The translations under genes and the position numbers were made by a program. Below, piece after piece: positions 28-48,231 of a DNA stretch of 63,404 bases. The notes under the pieces are model-generated. The model ran no database searches and was not told the origin of the DNA. It was given only the letters and a program-made list of their open reading frames with translations. Every line of letters starts with the position of its first letter. The stretch's first letter is position 1. Source of the stretch: Ignavibacteriales bacterium (GTDB lineage: Bacteria; Bacteroidota; Ignavibacteria; Ignavibacteriales; Ignavibacteriaceae); the NCBI GenBank assembly GCA_020061465.1, contig JAGUYG010000042.1, positions 1 to 63,404 of the forward strand, given 5' to 3'.

Positions 28-45
28 TCCAAAGGATCGTTCCGA
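28..45. repeat. 18-bp palindromic microelement
   Basis: The sequence is TCCAAAGGATCGTTCCGA. It is one of about ten related 18-mers in the window with a central GGATC. It lies inside MITE copy 1 at a point where copy 3 reads straight through. Confidence 0.7.
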
Positions 46-65
46 AAAGAAATGTTTCGATTATT

Positions 66-83
66 TCCGAAGGATCCTTTGGA
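66..83. repeat. 18-bp palindromic microelement
   Basis: The sequence is TCCGAAGGATCCTTTGGA, an imperfect palindrome centred on GGATCC. It is the second 18-bp unit within MITE copy 1 and is absent from copy 3. Confidence 0.7.
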
Positions 84-3836: not shown

Positions 3837-3994
3837 TTGTTCTCTCCAAAAGGTGATAAAATTCTTATGTTAAATTTAAGAATTAAGCAGGAGAATTCAG
3901 AAGGACAAAGAGGACAGCTAGATTTCGATTGAAAAGATTTAATGACACACTTTACTTAAAATTTATGAGTCTTCTCTAAAAAGGTATTTTCATT

Positions 3995-4012
3995 TCCAAA
4001 GGATCGTTCCGA
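3995..4012. repeat. 18-bp palindromic microelement
   Basis: The sequence TCCAAAGGATCGTTCCGA is identical to the unit at 28-45 and sits at the same place in MITE copy 2. Confidence 0.7.
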
Positions 4013-4032
4013 AAAGAAATGTTTCGATTATT

Positions 4033-4050
4033 TCCTAAGGATCCTTTGGA
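4033..4050. repeat. 18-bp palindromic microelement
   Basis: The sequence TCCTAAGGATCCTTTGGA differs at one base from the unit at 66-83 and sits at the same place in MITE copy 2. Confidence 0.7.
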
Positions 4051-4291
4051 CAGAATATTCGAATATAAAATTTCCAAATAAGACCTTTTTAGATACGCCT
4101 CATTTATAATTTGTTAATAAACAAGTCGAATGATTGAATGATTAAATGACTGTCCATTTAAACTGTCAGCTAAAGCAGAAGGCAATGGATATAGAAATAT
4201 TCTAATCGCTTCATAATCTTTGAATTTTGGAATTACGTTCGAAAAATCCTTCGGATAATCATGCATCCGGTTTATCGCCGGGCGGGTAACG

Positions 4292-10844: not shown

Positions 10845-11697
10845 ATAAGAATTTTGGTTCTACCGCTAATTGTGTGAAAGTTGTAAAAAGGTACCATATT
10901 TGTTTAAATAAAAAATCTACATTTTATAAAGGTTTTATGATAGTAAATATTAGTCTCAACCATTACTAAGTGAAAGCCCTGAAAGGGCATTATAACAACA
11001 ACATAGGGTAAAGCCCTATGGTGAACGAAACTTATATCAACTATACTAGCCCTGAAAGGGTGTCATAGCTTATGGGACAATCACTCGTAAAGAATTACAT
11101 CCACATTATATTCAGTACTAAACATAGAGAACCGCTAATATATCAACCGGTGCAGAATGAATTATACAGCTATATAGGTGGAATCTGCAAAGAAATGGAA
11201 TGTTATCCGATAAAAATAGGTGGTTATATAGAGCATATTCATATTCTATGTGCGTTATCAAAGAAAATTGCTTTAATGAAGCTACTGGAAGAAGTTAAAT
11301 CACATTCATCTAAGTGGATGAAAACAAAAGGTACTACACTGAAGAATTTTTACTGGCAGAATGGATACGGAGCGTTTTCAGTAAATCCATCTGAAATTGA
11401 TAAAGTAATAGAATATATAGAAAATCAGAAAGAGCATCACAAAATGAGAACATTTCAGGATGAATACAGAGCATTCTTGAAAAAGTATAAGGTAGAATAT
11501 GATAAACGTTATATATGGGACTAAAGTCTATTCCGCCCTTTCAGGGCCTTTTATTTTCAGATTCTATTTCACAGGGCTTTACCCTGTGTTAATATATTTT
11601 ACCCTTTCAGGGCTGAATGTTTTGGACAACCAGAAAGTTTCATGGTAGGCTGTATGAAATGTTTTCACACAATTGACGGTAGAACCAGAATTTTTAT
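10845..11697 (+). mobile_element. RAYT / IS200-type element bounded by 35-bp inverted arms
   Basis: The left arm (10845-10879) and the complement of the right arm (11663-11697) match at 31 of 35 bases, sharing TGGTTCTACCG and AATTGTGTGAAA. Inside them, mirror-image hairpin sets flank the Y1 transposase gene. Upstream are GCCCTGAAAGGGC (10976-10988), CATAGGGTAAAGCCCTATG (11002-11020) and GCCCTGAAAGGG (11049-11060). Downstream are GCCCTTTCAGGGC (11535-11547), ACAGGGCTTTACCCTGT (11571-11587) and ACCCTTTCAGGGC (11601-11613). The 853-base unit looks like an intact REP/RAYT module. Confidence 0.72.
11072..11524 (+). CDS. Y1 (HUH) transposase, IS200/RAYT type
   Basis: This 150-residue protein is a Y1 single-strand transposase of the IS200/IS605 TnpA fold. 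It carries the metal-binding HUH motif as His55-Ile-His57 (GYIEHIHIL) and the likely nucleophile Tyr115 in EIDKVIEYIENQ. The N-terminal YIHIIFSTKHREPLI is typical. Its length fits IS200 TnpA. No TnpB is present. Its placement between symmetric REP-like hairpins suggests a REP-associated tyrosine transposase that may mobilise those hairpins. The ORF is intact. Confidence 0.9.
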   Translation: MGQSLVKNYIHIIFSTKHREPLIYQPVQNELYSYIGGICKEMECYPIKIGGYIEHIHILCALSKKIALMKLLEEVKSHSSKWMKTKGTTLKNFYWQNGYGAFSVNPSEIDKVIEYIENQKEHHKMRTFQDEYRAFLKKYKVEYDKRYIWD

Positions 11698-11703
11698 TTA
11701 TGG

Positions 11704-11806
11704 ATGAGTCTTCTCTAAAAAGGTATTTTCATTAAAGAAATGTTTCGATTATTCAGAATATTCGAATATAAAATTTCCAAATAAGACCTTTTTAGATACG
11801 CCTCAT
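11704..11806. mobile_element. MITE-like repeat, copy 3 (no 18-bp units)
   Basis: This 103-base copy has the same ends as copies 1 and 2 but lacks both internal 18-bp units. Counting from the shared AGTCTT, copies 1 and 2 are 136 bases and this one is 100, and the difference is exactly two times 18. It is flanked by GG on both sides, which like the TT around copy 2 may be a two-base target duplication. Confidence 0.8.
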
Positions 11807-11855
11807 GGATAATTTTCTAAATAATTTTTCCAAAATTTCATTTGTTCTCTCTTTG

Positions 11856-18176: not shown

Positions 18177-18194
18177 TCCATAGGATCCTTTGGA
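18177..18194. repeat. 18-bp palindromic microelement
   Basis: TCCATAGGATCCTTTGGA differs at one base from the MITE-borne units. It sits in non-coding sequence. Confidence 0.65.
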
Positions 18195-18328: not shown

Positions 18329-18346
18329 TCTAAAAGATCCTTCGGA
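18329..18346. repeat. 18-bp palindromic microelement (degenerate)
   Basis: TCTAAAAGATCCTTCGGA matches the consensus except in the left half and looks like a decayed copy. A second degenerate unit overlaps it upstream at 18313-18330. Confidence 0.5.
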
Positions 18347-23022: not shown

Positions 23023-24297
23023 ATGAAAAAAGTTTTGGTAATAACTTACTTTTGGCCTCCTTCTGGAAAAGCTTCACTTCATCTTCCTTTGAAGATAGTT
23101 AAATATCTTCCGCAGTTTGATTGGACACCGGTAGTACTGACCGTTAAAGAAGATACATTCTCAGATAAGGATGAAAGTCTGCTAAAAGATGTTTCACCCG
23201 ATTTAATAGTAGCAAAAACAAAAACCTTTGAGCCGTTTAACATGTATCGAAAGGCGATAGGAAAAAAAACAGAAGAACCGCTTATTGCATCTGAAACAAT
23301 TTCAAAAGAGAATGAGGGAATGATGCATAAACTTTCTGTATGGATAAGAATGAATTTATTCATTCCGGATGCACGTATCGGCTGGTTCTTTTCCGCGGTT
23401 AAAAAAGGAAAGCAGCTTTTTAAAGAACATAAATTTGATGCGGTGCTATCTTTCGGTCCCCCGCATACAGCACACTTGATCGGAAAATACTTGTCTCGTC
23501 GTTTCAAAGTAAACCACTTTCCCGTGTTTATAGACCCATGGACGGATATAATTTATTACAAAAATTTTAAGAGAAGCAAACCGACGATAATGATCGATAA
23601 CTATTTAGAAAAAAAAGTACTGCAAAATTGTAAGAAAGCTGTTTTCGTTACACAAACTATGGAATCAGATTATTTGAAAAAATATCCTTGGTTAAGCGGT
23701 AAGACATTTGTTTCTTACTGGGGATATAACGAAGAAGATTTTTCCGAAGGATCGTTTCGAGACTCACTCAATTTTTCCACCACGTACGAAGAAGAAACCG
23801 TTGTTCATGCAGGTAATATATTCGATTATCAAAATCCGGTTAACTTTTGGAAGCAGTTGAAACATGAAATAGATAACGGACGAAGAATAAAATTGAAATT
23901 CATCGGGACTGTAAGTCCAGCAATAAAAAAAACAATTTCCGGGGTTGGTCTTGAAAGCCACACAGAATATTCCGGCTTTCTCCCTTATAAAGAAATGTTG
24001 AATGAGTTAGCGAAAGCGACTTATTTATTAGTCTGTGCTACCGAACCGCGGCATCTTCCGGGCAAGCTTTTCGAATACCTTAGAACCGGCAAACCGATTA
24101 TTGCATTCGGAAATGATAACAAAGATGTGAAAGGAATATTGGAGGAATCGAATGCCGGAATGCTTTTCCGATACAACGAATCCGGTAAAGAATTTTTTGA
24201 GCGTGCAGAACAATTTTCTACTGATTTTGATACTGTTAAAAAGTTTGACAGAAAAGAAATAACACGTCTTCTCGCAGAGATGATGTCAAATTCTTAA
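23023..24297 (+). CDS. Glycosyltransferase, GT4-like, carrying an in-frame 18-bp element
   Basis: This 424-residue GT-B protein begins KKVLVITYFWPPSGKASLHLPLKIVKYLPQF, a usual start of family 4 glycosyltransferases, and has the C-terminal donor-site region LLVCATEPRHLPGKLFEYLRTGKPIIAFG. The microelement TCCGAAGGATCGTTTCGA occupies 23743-23760 in exact codon register (codons 241-246) and encodes SEGSFR. Without it the text reads YNEEDF-DSLNF, a natural join. It faces the aminotransferase gene tail to tail with one base between. It probably adds a sugar in surface-glycan synthesis. Confidence 0.85.
   Translation: MKKVLVITYFWPPSGKASLHLPLKIVKYLPQFDWTPVVLTVKEDTFSDKDESLLKDVSPDLIVAKTKTFEPFNMYRKAIGKKTEEPLIASETISKENEGMMHKLSVWIRMNLFIPDARIGWFFSAVKKGKQLFKEHKFDAVLSFGPPHTAHLIGKYLSRRFKVNHFPVFIDPWTDIIYYKNFKRSKPTIMIDNYLEKKVLQNCKKAVFVTQTMESDYLKKYPWLSGKTFVSYWGYNEEDFSEGSFRDSLNFSTTYEEETVVHAGNIFDYQNPVNFWKQLKHEIDNGRRIKLKFIGTVSPAIKKTISGVGLESHTEYSGFLPYKEMLNELAKATYLLVCATEPRHLPGKLFEYLRTGKPIIAFGNDNKDVKGILEESNAGMLFRYNESGKEFFERAEQFSTDFDTVKKFDRKEITRLLAEMMSNS
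23743..23760 (+). repeat. 18-bp palindromic microelement inside a CDS
   Basis: TCCGAAGGATCGTTTCGA lies in frame in the GT4-like gene and translates to SEGSFR. It has the same codon phase as the copy in the glycosyltransferase gene at 30198-30215. Confidence 0.75.
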
Positions 24298-25746: not shown

Positions 25747-26759
25747 CAGTTCCTTTCCCGAAAGTATTCGGGATCGTTCCGAAAAAATTTTGATTTGTCG
25801 TAAATGTTATAGCTTGAAAAAAGCTTGCGCCAAATATATAAAATCAGAGTTTTCCAATTAGCTGTGTATTTAGCTGAACCGTGCGGATCAATTGATTGAT
25901 CAAGTTGATATATCCGCTGCTTTATTTCCTCAAGATGATTTATGTAAGGCTTGTAGAAAATTTTCTTTACTTCGTCGGTTAGAATTCTCCTCCCTAACTC
26001 GATCTTATTGTTATCAAAAAACTTTATATAATGAAAATGATATAAGATTACTTCGAATTTTTTACCGGTGCTCTTTTCAGTGCCAATTATTTTTTCATCT
26101 TCCATTTCAAATGAATATTGTTGAACATTCCACGGCGCAACACCTCCGCCCAAATGCTGTAAAACGTGTACTCCATCAAATCTCGAGGTCCAATCATCAA
26201 GGTACATTTGATCGCCGAACTTACCATCTTCATATCGCGCATAACACCATTCAATACAGCGTTTGCGCCACCATCGTAATGCCTTCATTCCATTTTCATC
26301 TTTTTTGAATGTTATGAATTGCACACAGTACTTCCCGCTTTTTTTTGATTTATCATATTGCGGCGTATAGCGGTGTTCGGTAATAAGAATTGATTTATCT
26401 CTTAATTCATCGAAAATAGTTTTCGGGCTTTGATAGAAATATAGATCAGCATCAATATAAGTGCAGTTATCCACATTGAAATTTTCAAGAACATATAAAA
26501 TGGTAGACGAAGTTGACGTCCAGCAATACTCGGCTTTATTTCGTGTTGGTTTTACTTCAAGCAATTCTTCGTCTTCAAACTGAGCTAATGAAATTATTGT
26601 GGTATGAGGAAGATTTAATCTGTTTAGAACGTTGTAACTCGGCTTATCGAATGCAAAGATGTAAAGATGAAAATCATCGCAAACTTTTTTAAGCGATTCA
26701 TACATTGCCAAACCGCGCGAAAGATAGTTCGAGTCGAATAAAGTGCAAAAGTTATACAT
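25746..26759 (-). CDS. Glycosyltransferase (GT-A, GT8-like) with composite palindrome at its 3' end
   Basis: This 337-residue GT-A protein starts NFCTLFDSNYLSRGLAMYESLKK and has the nucleotide-sugar DxD in CTYIDADLYFYQSP and a late HLGGGVAPWN segment, as in GT8-like transferases. Its last residues FRNDPEYFRERN are encoded by a 27-base palindromic unit at 25756-25782; removing it would leave KFLRN and the same stop. It overlaps the methyltransferase upstream and abuts the ketoisomerase downstream, so it belongs to the glycan operon. Confidence 0.78.
   Translation of the reverse strand: MYNFCTLFDSNYLSRGLAMYESLKKVCDDFHLYIFAFDKPSYNVLNRLNLPHTTIISLAQFEDEELLEVKPTRNKAEYCWTSTSSTILYVLENFNVDNCTYIDADLYFYQSPKTIFDELRDKSILITEHRYTPQYDKSKKSGKYCVQFITFKKDENGMKALRWWRKRCIEWCYARYEDGKFGDQMYLDDWTSRFDGVHVLQHLGGGVAPWNVQQYSFEMEDEKIIGTEKSTGKKFEVILYHFHYIKFFDNNKIELGRRILTDEVKKIFYKPYINHLEEIKQRIYQLDQSIDPHGSAKYTANWKTLILYIWRKLFSSYNIYDKSKFFRNDPEYFRERN
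25756..25782 (-). repeat. 27-bp composite palindromic unit in a CDS
   Basis: On the plus strand it is TCCCGAAAGTATTCGGGA followed by TCGTTCCGA, i.e. an 18-bp palindrome plus the right half of the GGATC-type unit. It is in frame and translates to xRNDPEYFRE on the minus strand. A sister copy is at 26771-26797. Confidence 0.65.
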
Positions 26760-27504
26760 CGGTTTTCTTTTCCCGACAGCAGTCGGGATCGTTCCGACTT
26801 GCTAAAATTATGTTGTCAAGATATAAATCATTATTAGAAGGCAATATAAGGGATAGTAAAAGACCGGTGAGTGTTATTGGAGCCATAATGAAAATGACTG
26901 AAGCCTGTTTTATTACTGGAATTTTTCTTGTCATTTCATAGATATATCCATTAAGCAGTTGGAAGATTACTGCTATATTGTTCACACTTTTTAATTGCAA
27001 AAGAATTTCAAAACCGGTTTCTTCAAGCAATGACTTTAATCCGAATGAAGAATACCTTGCATAGTCGTAGGGCTGTTCGTGTTCATCCCAAACGAAAGGA
27101 ACGGTCAACAATAGTTTGCCGTTTAACTTAAGTACGCGATTAATTTCGGATAAAAATTCTTTCGGATTAAAAACATGCTCTAGCACCTGGTTTGTTACCA
27201 CAGAATCGAATTCTTCATCTGCAAAAGGGAAGGTTTTTCCGTCGTAATAAAAATCGGCTTTTTTCTTTTCTAAATCCAAACCGGTGTTAAACTCCAATCC
27301 GACATATTCTGAAGATGCAAAAAGATTCTCGTAAGGTTTGGTACCGCAGCCGGCATCTAAAGTTTTACCGGAAATTTCTTTCCCAAGTTTATCTATAGAT
27401 TTTCTCAACCCATTTCGAGCAATAAAGAAAGGATTAACAAATACACCTAACCAGCTAGGGTGAAATTGCTCTTTTTCAATTCTTTTTTTTATTTTTTTTA
27501 TCAT
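26752..27504 (-). CDS. Class I SAM methyltransferase with composite palindrome at its 3' end
   Basis: This 250-residue methyltransferase has KTLDAGCGTKPYENLF, EYVGLEFN and DSVVTNQVLEHVFNP motifs. Its C-terminal tail SRNDPDCCREKKTDV includes a 27-base palindromic unit (26771-26797) in the same codon phase as the one in the next gene. The unit ends just before the start codon of that gene (26757-26759), so it could also alter translation initiation there. It overlaps the MetW-like gene upstream by four bases. The substrate is unknown, probably a glycan or lipid carrier. Confidence 0.8.
   Translation of the reverse strand: MIKKIKKRIEKEQFHPSWLGVFVNPFFIARNGLRKSIDKLGKEISGKTLDAGCGTKPYENLFASSEYVGLEFNTGLDLEKKKADFYYDGKTFPFADEEFDSVVTNQVLEHVFNPKEFLSEINRVLKLNGKLLLTVPFVWDEHEQPYDYARYSSFGLKSLLEETGFEILLQLKSVNNIAVIFQLLNGYIYEMTRKIPVIKQASVIFIMAPITLTGLLLSLILPSNNDLYLDNIILASRNDPDCCREKKTDV
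26771..26797 (-). repeat. 27-bp composite palindromic unit in a CDS
   Basis: On the plus strand it is TCCCGACAGCAGTCGGGA followed by TCGTTCCGA. It starts at a third codon position, exactly like the copy at 25756-25782, giving SRNDPDCCRE. Confidence 0.65.
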
Positions 27505-29762: not shown

Positions 29763-30707
29763 TTATTTTACCTCATGTACAAACAAATTTTTTCGAAATA
29801 AATTTTTAGCTGCTATAGTTAATTTGTTAAGCACAGAAGGTCTGGTTTTAGTAAAATATTTTTTAATAGCTTCTTTTGCGATTAAATTTTCTAAAATTTC
29901 TATTCGAGTCAAGCTGATTGGTTTTTCAGAAAGCTCAACATCAAATCTCTTTGTAGAAATAAGGTTTGAACCTGAAAGGTCGGCTCCAATATTCTTAACT
30001 AACGATCGACTGGGATACAGAGTAAATTTATTAGTTATGTATGCTGATGCGTGCCATCTTATTGCCCATGAATCAACTTTACCGGCGATTTGCCGTTTGA
30101 GCATTCTTACGTTATTTACTGTACCATCGAGGTCGAACGAGCGCAGAAGATTTTTTCTTTTTAGTTCATCTAACAATTTTCTCCCGTCATGTTCAAATCC
30201 AAAGGATCCTTCGGACAGTTCCCATGCTCTTTTCCATGTTGCCCAGCCCCAGCAATCTGCACCGCGAAGGAAGAATGTTTCCGGAAGCTTTTGCTTAACC
30301 GGATAGACATACCCGTGAATTGAAATTACATCAGGATCGTATTTATACAATTCAAGTGCAGAATTCATATAATTCAAAAAGAAAGGTGACACAACAAGAT
30401 CATCTTCTAAAATTATAAGACTTTCATATAAATTAAGTAATTGGCTTACTCCGCTTATTATTGAATTCGATAGTCCTAAATTTTTATCTCTTTCAAAAAT
30501 TTCTAAAGACTTAAACCCCTTTATTCTTTTAATATATTTCCTAACAGCTTCTACGCTTTTTTCTTCATTAGCATATTTTGGCGCGTCAGAAAAGATGAAT
30601 AAAACAGAATTTACTGATTCTGGGTTGTTCATTAAAGATAAAATGGTCTTTTGGGTGTGCTCTAATCTTTTAAATACAAAAAGTGCGATTGGGGTATTAA
30701 CCATCAT
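29763..30707 (-). CDS. Glycosyltransferase (GT2/GNT-I-like) carrying an in-frame 18-bp element
   Basis: I take the ATG at 30707, one base after the stop of the upstream gene; an ATG at 30728 would overlap it. The 314-residue protein has an N-terminal GT-A start (NTPIALFVFKRLEHTQKTI), an acidic motif LIILEDDLVVSPFFLNYM and FFLRGADCWGWATWKRAWEL. An 18-bp unit (30198-30215, in frame) then encodes SEGSFG. Deleting it leaves RAWELFEHDGRKLLDELKRK, which matches the expected family text. The donor is unknown. Confidence 0.82.
   Translation of the reverse strand: MMVNTPIALFVFKRLEHTQKTILSLMNNPESVNSVLFIFSDAPKYANEEKSVEAVRKYIKRIKGFKSLEIFERDKNLGLSNSIISGVSQLLNLYESLIILEDDLVVSPFFLNYMNSALELYKYDPDVISIHGYVYPVKQKLPETFFLRGADCWGWATWKRAWELSEGSFGFEHDGRKLLDELKRKNLLRSFDLDGTVNNVRMLKRQIAGKVDSWAIRWHASAYITNKFTLYPSRSLVKNIGADLSGSNLISTKRFDVELSEKPISLTRIEILENLIAKEAIKKYFTKTRPSVLNKLTIAAKNLFRKNLFVHEVK
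30198..30215 (-). repeat. 18-bp palindromic microelement inside a CDS
   Basis: The coding-strand sequence is TCCGAAGGATCCTTTGGA, identical to the unit at 66-83, and reads SEGSFG in frame. It starts exactly on a codon boundary, like the copy at 23743-23760. Confidence 0.78.
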
Positions 30708-30708
30708 T

Positions 30709-31338
30709 TTATTTTTTCTTAAAATCAATAATCAGTGATGTATATCTTGGAATTCCATCCAAATTTCTTTCATCATTAATAAAAGACCTTGTAACAAATC
30801 CGTTTGCATCGTTCTTATATCCATTATGAAATTTCCCAAGCTCATCCCAGTATTCAACTGGAAGTGAAATAAAACCATTGTTTTCGAACATAGCCGCTAA
30901 TGTCTTATAATTAAAAAGGTGCTTATGATCAAATGCGCCTTCTCCGGTACCGCCTGGTCTGACCATTTCAATATAATTGTCATCTGGATGATAACCATCA
31001 GGAACAGCAATTCTAATATTGACACTATCCGAGGAGTGCTTATAAAAATTTATGATCATTACTTGTATTTCTTCCTCTGTTAAGTGTTCTAATACATGTT
31101 CTGCCAATACATTATCAATCTTTTTTTTAGAAAAATATTTTCTAAAATGAACTCCTTTTGTAACATCAAGAGTTGTAATATCAGTATTAAACCAACCTTT
31201 CAATTTAACTTTTCCCGCTCCCACTACTAATTTTATACTGTCATTCAACCAAAGATAGGTTTTCCACTGAATTTTCTTAAAGAATCTGATGAGGGGAATG
31301 GATAAATAGTAAATTATACGTTTCAAACGTTTATACAT
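30709..31338 (-). CDS. SAM methyltransferase-like protein
   Basis: This 209-residue protein begins with a basic/hydrophobic N-terminus (YKRLKRIIYYLSIPLIRFFKK) and carries a degenerate SAM motif KLVVGAGKVKLKGWFNTDI and the late motif NVLAEHVLEHLTEEE. These match predicted SAM-dependent methyltransferases common in glycan clusters. It overlaps or abuts its neighbours, so it is part of the same minus-strand operon. The substrate is unknown. Confidence 0.75.
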   Translation of the reverse strand: MYKRLKRIIYYLSIPLIRFFKKIQWKTYLWLNDSIKLVVGAGKVKLKGWFNTDITTLDVTKGVHFRKYFSKKKIDNVLAEHVLEHLTEEEIQVMIINFYKHSSDSVNIRIAVPDGYHPDDNYIEMVRPGGTGEGAFDHKHLFNYKTLAAMFENNGFISLPVEYWDELGKFHNGYKNDANGFVTRSFINDERNLDGIPRYTSLIIDFKKK

Positions 31339-48181: not shown

Positions 48182-48231
48182 TCCTAAGGAACCTTTCCAA
48201 AGGATCGTTCCGACGGTCGGGATCGTTCCGA
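48182..48231. repeat. Tandem 18-bp palindromic microelements
   Basis: Three units lie end to end: TCCTAAGGAACCTTTCCA (48182-48199, overlapping the next), TCCAAAGGATCGTTCCGA (48196-48213) and CGGTCGGGATCGTTCCGA (48214-48231). This is the only tandem array of the 18-mer in the window. Confidence 0.7.

Follow-up and report, generated by a model that had tools for sequence, protein, structure and literature searches.

Copies of an 18-bp element, among them TCCGAAGGATCGTTTCGA inside a gene encoding a GT4-type glycosyltransferase, are scattered through the draft genome of an Ignavibacteriales bacterium (4.21 Mb in 122 contigs). They probably represent a small dispersed element that inserts cleanly, in its asymmetric type next to a short pyrimidine motif, and survives within genes where protein loops accommodate it; its proposed mobiliser is an HUH enzyme. 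At the level of sequence, the comparisons document clean presence or absence of 18 bp, covariation within the stems, a target preference on one side of the element, near-restriction to one genome and absence from all aligned homologues. Recent movement of the element is what we infer from the sequences, as no population polymorphism was seen.

Copies in two glycosyltransferase-like genes

The window, the whole 63,404-nt stretch of DNA that was analysed, has two copies of the element within genes.

23023-24297, plus strand: host gene, GT4-type glycosyltransferase (Glyco_trans_1_4 and Glycos_transf_1 over the Pfam cut-offs)
23743-23760, plus strand: 18-mer element TCCGAAGGATCGTTTCGA in the GT4-like gene, phase 0, SEGSFR
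29763-30728, minus strand: host gene, GNT-I-like protein (weak Pfam match to PF03071, below cut-off)
30198-30215, minus strand: 18-mer element TCCGAAGGATCCTTTGGA in this second glycosyltransferase-like gene, phase 0, SEGSFG

The initial annotation had placed TCCGAAGGATCGTTTCGA in frame at 23743-23760 and read it as SEGSFR, and position, ORF and translation bear this out. The 18-mer starts 720 bases past the ATG of ORF 23023-24297 in exact codon register, and its codons, TCC GAA GGA TCG TTT CGA, specify residues 241-246 of the 424-residue product. The copy at 30198-30215, reported to share this codon phase, does so in ORF 29763-30728.

SEGSFR is not conserved at the GT4 site, being absent there from every relative that could be aligned: 29 of 29 orthologues (50-64% identity) and 13 of 13 named relatives (10 at 56-64% and 3 at 30-32% identity), the latter overlapping partly in genomes with the former. 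Among named relatives, the eleven with 56-63% identity are genomes from metagenomes that carry Bacteroidetes or Ignavibacteria-type labels, and eight more distant ones bear other labels. The earlier suggestion that the protein would read YNEEDF-DSLNF without the insert fits these relatives in that all lack SEGSFR, but the loop varies in length among them and the gap is not exactly six residues, so that the GT4 insertion, taken alone, is the less exact case. In the AlphaFold2 model of the protein, SEGSFR borders the segment modelled with the lowest confidence, with pLDDT values below 50 for residues 247-254 and of 54 for the block 241-250. This prediction supports tolerance of the insert by the GT4 loop, an alternative that had also been raised initially. 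Three GT4 orthologues (L076, L082 and L235) have PLPKE-type residues in the loop where SEGSFR sits, and in L076 and L082 the DNA encoding these residues is a palindrome, CCCCTTCCTAAGGAAGGGG, with one site per genome. PLPKEG in these two relatives was considered as an independent repeat insertion and rejected, as the corresponding 19-mer has a single site in each genome (≤1 mismatch).

In the GNT-I-like protein, SEGSFG corresponds to a six-residue gap in 15 of 15 aligned homologues, these being the best 15 of 23 other matches (three contain one internal stop) from a search in which 22 of 41 genomes had no match. The gap is clearest in the eight closest homologues (44-52% identity), with conserved sequence on both sides. 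The alignments support both in-gene copies being insertions that are absent from the aligned relatives.

Abundance and distribution

The genome-wide search for the 18-mer that had been suggested initially reveals a dispersed family, with 189 copies at ≤2 mismatches, versus 0 for the reversed control, in 1,857,163 bases, a sample that is 44% of the genome and was picked in part because copies were present. The exact TCCGAAGGATCGTTTCGA occurs 3 times in the genome. At ≤3 mismatches, TCCGAAGGATCCTTTGGA gives 216 + 225 strand hits genome-wide versus 0 for the reversed pattern, many sites being counted on both strands because this sequence is nearly palindromic. Within the window there are 8 matches to TCCGAAGGATCGTTTCGA at ≤3 mismatches, versus 0.08 expected from shuffles, and 9 family members when several forms are used for the scan. 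With 1 mismatch allowed, TCCGAAGGATCSTTYSGA has 218 strand hits here; of 40 relatives, 4 have any hit, and none has more than 3. Exact matches to TCCRAAGGATCSTTYSGA number 157 here; of the 163 further genomes searched in the order, 7 have any, with ≤6 strand hits each (109 of the 164 genomes in this set are ≥90% complete and ≤5% contaminated). By these counts, the repeat family is nearly private to this genome.

Filled and empty sites

The remaining copies in the window are intergenic, and four are located in copies of a ~150-nt repeat that is also present in an empty form.

28-45, plus strand: 18-mer element in a ~150-nt intergenic repeat (mismatch scan, repeat comparison)
66-83, plus strand: 18-mer element in the same ~150-nt repeat (mismatch scan, repeat comparison, empty-site query)
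3995-4012, plus strand: 18-mer element in another ~150-nt repeat copy, at 3968-4121 (mismatch scan, repeat comparison, empty-site query)
4033-4050, plus strand: 18-mer element, likewise in the repeat copy at 3968-4121 (mismatch scan, repeat comparison, empty-site query)
11698-11812, plus strand: third ~150-nt repeat copy, with neither 18-mer (two exact empty sites)
18177-18194, plus strand: 18-mer element, intergenic
18329-18346, minus strand: 18-mer element TCCGAAGGATCTTTTAGA, intergenic, second hairpin TCT-TTT-AGA
48196-48213, plus strand: 18-mer element, intergenic, in the loop of a CCCGA..TCGGG hairpin

Direct reading of the sequence places two elements in each of the repeat copies at 1-154 and 3968-4121 and none in the copy at 11698-11812. 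Filled and empty repeats differ by exactly 18 bp, with unambiguous boundaries and no target duplication. In a 1.21-Mb sample of the genome, an ungapped empty site was present elsewhere for 43 of the 94 copies queried, a few of these sites being self-overlaps (e.g. C48:22820, C102:18329), and 51 of the 94 had no empty site in that sample. Indels of 6-60 nt between copies of intergenic repeats have a length of 18 bp at 48 of 101 distinct sites, at least 4 of which, among the part of the 48 that was listed, are another 18-nt palindrome. The next most common length is 9 nt (7 sites), and there are 2 sites with 27 nt, of the same modular build.

The explanation that the family reflects an assembly artefact or chance can point to the draft state of the assembly, with its 122 contigs, and to the several contigs that end in the ~150-nt repeat. 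It is refuted by the 0 hits to the control, the near-private family, the intact ORFs that surround copies and the exact empty sites, and we regard its probability as negligible.

Several neighbouring repeats have a similar appearance. Another 18-nt palindrome (CCACAGAATTCTTTGGGC) is also seen as an indel in intergenic repeats, as are hairpin pairs of 17, 19 and 20 nt (e.g. GTCCAAAGGACTCCTTTGGA). Hairpins of the form TCCCGA-N6-TCGGGA followed by TCGTTCCGA are present in the window at 25750-25782 and 26765-26797, immediately before two minus-strand start codons and overlapping the 3′ ends of the upstream ORFs; these are built from 18 + 9 nt modules in the style of the 18-bp element. A search of the window against Rfam gave no match at the gathering score.

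Structure of the element

The element consists of two tandem 9-nt mini-hairpins, each of the form TCx-NNN-x′GA. With both strands counted, 118 of 243 anchors TCC[GA][AT]AGGA are followed by nine bases that contain a full 3-bp stem, and only 4 of 243 have one in the nine bases beyond this second unit. The stems of the second unit are TCC/GGA (59), TCG/CGA (35), TCA/TGA (11), TGC/GCA (3), TCT/AGA (3) and seven singletons. Complementary x and x′ are present in 34 of the 45 distinct elements whose TC..GA ends are fixed (shuffled mean 14.9, maximum 26 in 5000 shuffles), and the pairs predicted for a single end-to-end 18-bp palindrome are complementary in 21-22 of 45 only. Folding of five of the 18-mers as single-stranded DNA gave stabilities that were not above those of shuffled sequences (z from -0.70 to 0.69), and the structural argument for hairpins is consequently one from covariation alone. 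Direct reading finds no stop codons in the main forms; variants with the TCA/TGA stem have a TGA in phase 0. In one copy (L042), 27 bp (TCCGAAGGA plus TCCCGAAGGCATTCGGGA) are present at the site where others have 18 bp, which suggests that modules can be swapped.

A recognition motif, for instance one for DNA uptake or protein binding, created in place by point mutations and maintained by selection at the DNA or protein level would account for a high copy number nearly private to one genome, and for codons that are almost frozen in the 17 sorting domains described below. Presence and absence are, however, exact 18-bp indels, homologues have a six-residue gap and not a substitution at the site, and the second half of the element varies widely with compensated stems, unlike a fixed word. 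We therefore consider such a motif very improbable.

Insertion site preference

The target rule was derived from the asymmetric type alone, whose orientation is readable. Counted as independent hosts, coding sequences among them, its 65 copies come down to 41. For the symmetric types, independent hosts number just 7, 5 and 2, too few for a judgement. In the 41 hosts, a C is present at -4 in 76%, with most others having a T, as does the GT4 copy; there is a T at -2 in 76%, and G is absent from -2 to -4. On the other side, an A is present at +2 in 71% and a C at +5 in 51%, and the C at -4 is not mirrored by a strong G at +4. The preference holds when intergenic hosts are considered alone, with C at -4 in 17 of 23 (p = 1e-8). 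Five asymmetric copies were found in other genomes of the order, and the 4 of 4 that were viewed are preceded by CTT(T/T/G/C). On the basis of these flanks, the asymmetric type is located 3′ of C-(T/C/A)-T-N, a preference and not a fixed word.

Copies in coding sequences and reading-frame phase

The 189 sampled copies divide into 64 in predicted genes (predicted by our own ORF scoring), 124 that are intergenic and 1 at an edge. Copies are depleted in genes, with 64 of 188 observed versus 163 expected; selection clearly keeps them out.

From the phase shared by the two glycosyltransferase copies, the initial annotation had proposed selection on the reading frame or phase-directed insertion. The full counts appear at first to favour this, as phases 0/1/2 are represented by 39/12/13 of all 64 coding copies and by 33/5/12 of the 50 strict coding copies (p = 3e-6). 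Of these 50, 20 are from one sorting-domain family, nearly all at one site, and 5 are nested in another repeat. The independent 25 that remain, three of them in one gene on C117, are instead spread over phases 0 and 2 (9/4/12, p = 0.14 versus uniform). Compared with the phases predicted from the target (p = 0.05), they have a deficit in phase 1 and not a rise in phase 0. With a 9/4/12 distribution, chance alone gives two copies the same phase about 39% of the time, and a preferred phase is not supported as a sign of selection on the frame. The commonest length outside genes is 18 bp as well. We consider selection on the frame or phase-directed insertion very improbable.

The target preference was considered as the cause of the phase bias and rejected: a flank matrix built from 23 independent intergenic hosts predicts 36/35/29% and explains little. 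Among hairpin pairs, 121 of 140 intergenic and 36 of 37 coding examples have 18 bp (Fisher p = 0.08), and a frame filter on length (18 versus 17, 19 or 20) is therefore not significant. The frame is kept because the element is 18 bp long, as it is outside genes too, and because its main forms are free of stops. Insertion in phase 1 would add hydrophobic and basic residues (RRIVP, GTILW), and insertion in phases 0 and 2 polar ones; ordinary purifying selection can, we infer, explain the deficit in phase 1. In three loci (L187, L212 and L213, on C22, C116 and C118) the 18-mer is located in the loop of a GAGACGGGG..CATGCCCC repeat inside long ORFs, and these nested repeats are translated through, as SERSFG then HA.

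Copies in T9SS-like sorting domains

Seventeen paralogous C-terminal sorting domains share a codon boundary at which TCCGTAGGATCCTTTGGA or a close variant of it is present (e.g. L174:10844-11083). The one carrier tested against the T9SS type A sorting-domain model gave a weak match (20.7 bits, cut-off 23). Pairwise DNA identity among the 17 is 0.99 within the element and 0.62 over 36 bases on either side, and shared residues have identical codons in 98% of cases within the element and in 57% and 51% beside it; the comparison is ungapped, and two members with further inserts lower the right-side value slightly. A 99%-identical copy between 62%-identical flanks is the most surprising result of the analysis. 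The element is absent from 47 other domains of this genome, namely the sampled domains that cover the site and fall within the length limits, and from 32 domains of relatives. Of the 16 exact occurrences of TCCGTAGGATCCTTTGGA in the sample, 15 are in called sorting-domain genes and the sixteenth (C42:52607) is inside a sorting-domain match. Two further sorting domains, L196 (C83:14339) and L222 (C50:11729), have the element elsewhere and in phase 1 (VRRIVPT and VRRIVPI, respectively).

A tree of 97 domains (18 carriers, one with a divergent SAGSLG, 47 other domains of this genome and 32 from relatives) was based on 66 columns and is mostly unresolved. The carriers require 14 changes on this tree (shuffled mean 16.8, with 8 of 500 shuffles as low), and in the AU test a single carrier clade was not rejected (p = 0.126). 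The argument for parallel insertion into the sorting domains accordingly comes from codon identity, since the tree does not reject a single origin. The copies would reflect either repeated entry at the same place after the domains diverged, or very short-patch copying, or a constraint on the DNA.

Short-patch gene conversion or template switching could copy the 18 bp between places with shared microhomology, without a dedicated transposase. It gains from the confinement of TCCGTAGGATCCTTTGGA to sorting domains, as if copied between like contexts, and from the lack of a mobiliser linked to the element. Many unrelated contexts nevertheless share the one-sided target motif, other genera included, and it would be strange in its own right for conversion to stop at 18 bp when the flanks are 62% identical. 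We consider copying of this kind doubtful, while giving it appreciable weight. The fuller form of the transposition reading, in which the element moves as a pair of 9-nt mini-hairpins by means of an HUH enzyme and has entered many times in parallel at one sorting-domain codon boundary and at a second loop, is a tentative proposal that we consider plausible without favouring it.

Candidate mobiliser and proposed mechanism

One gene in the window is a candidate for the mobilising function.

11072-11524, plus strand: IS200/IS605-family Y1 transposase, candidate mobiliser (over the IS200/IS605 cut-off; adjoins the empty ~150-nt repeat)

This transposase gene is located between 35-nt inverted repeats at 10845-10879 and 11663-11697. 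The genome has ten Y1_Tnp matches, this being the one in the window. The element does not consistently flank the Y1 genes; a copy is present within about 1.5 kb at 4 of the 10 Y1 loci. RAYT linkage was considered and rejected, as the copies near these 4 of 10 loci have no pattern.

A Y1-type HUH enzyme is nevertheless proposed, by analogy, because insertion is clean and duplication-free, the target is short and one-sided, the units are hairpins and there are ten Y1_Tnp matches. On this reading, the element enters DNA without target duplication, the asymmetric type 3′ of the short pyrimidine motif C-T/C/A-T-N. It would move as single-stranded hairpin DNA, with an HUH (Y1) transposase, IS200/IS605-like or REP-associated, acting in trans. 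It settles mostly between genes and persists within them where six extra loop residues are harmless. Frame and phase play no part in targeting and are outcomes of the 18-bp length, the stop-free main forms and purifying selection.

Comparison with known elements

Small dispersed repeats (SDR) of cyanobacteria, reportedly described by Elhai et al. in 2008, are said to be very small mobile repeats that insert precisely. The element resembles them as a tiny sequence precisely present or absent at homologous sites, with exact 18-bp empty sites; it is set apart by its 18-bp length, its paired 9-nt mini-hairpins with covarying stems, its C-T-T-N target and its Ignavibacteria-type genome.

Insertion of IS200/IS605 elements leaves no target duplication, and each of their ends has a subterminal hairpin of about 20-25 nt with guide tetranucleotides. 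According to two papers, their insertion is strand-specific at a short target tetranucleotide, with the site chosen through guide tetranucleotides (PMC8266576, PMC6006769). The 18-bp element, in its asymmetric type, likewise inserts 3′ of a short target, here only preferred, without duplication at the window sites, but 18 bp with 3-bp stems are too short for separate left- and right-end hairpins plus guide sequences.

For REPs, published work describes doublets as the replicative unit (PMC3116915), cleavage of single-stranded REP by TnpAREP at CT, and by one TnpAREP also at CA (PMC8266576), and a conserved GTAG (or CGTC) tetranucleotide at one end (PMC3733652, PMC8266576). The element is similarly a short imperfect palindrome, high in copy number and mainly extragenic, in a genome with Y1 genes. 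It differs from REPs and REPINs in its 3-bp stems and 18-bp unit, in the one third of copies that are in genes and in the lack of a consistently flanked Y1 gene. GTAG is present here only inside the GTA-loop variant TCCGTAGGA, and not at the hairpin foot; the main forms end in neither GTAG nor CGTC, and neither word is fixed in their flanks.

Rickettsia palindromic elements, according to one review, are about 150 bp long, palindromic and located in frame in unrelated genes (PMC10969869). The present element is also a palindromic repeat inserted in frame in unrelated genes, but it has 18 bp, uses all three phases and is two thirds intergenic. In kind, the element is closest to cyanobacterial SDRs and to REPs, departing from REPs in the foot motif and the flanked gene. 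In the literature searched, which was accessible in part, we found no description of this 18-bp element, a statement confined to those sources.

Implications

The many filled and empty sites in one genome make this a clear case of 18-bp DNA behaving as mobile. To our knowledge, it ranks with the smallest units of mobile DNA so far proposed. The spread of the smallest bacterial repeats is an old question, and this case opens it to tests that use short oligonucleotides and a single enzyme family. Copies frozen in sorting domains that have diverged require site-specific insertion to have recurred, very short stretches to have been copied from paralogue to paralogue, or the DNA itself to be under constraint. 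For proteins, insertion of 18 bp is a route to the gain of six-residue loop inserts, with the frame kept by the length of the element, and, if parallel insertion into the sorting domains is correct, the same six residues would have been added throughout a set of secreted proteins within a single lineage.
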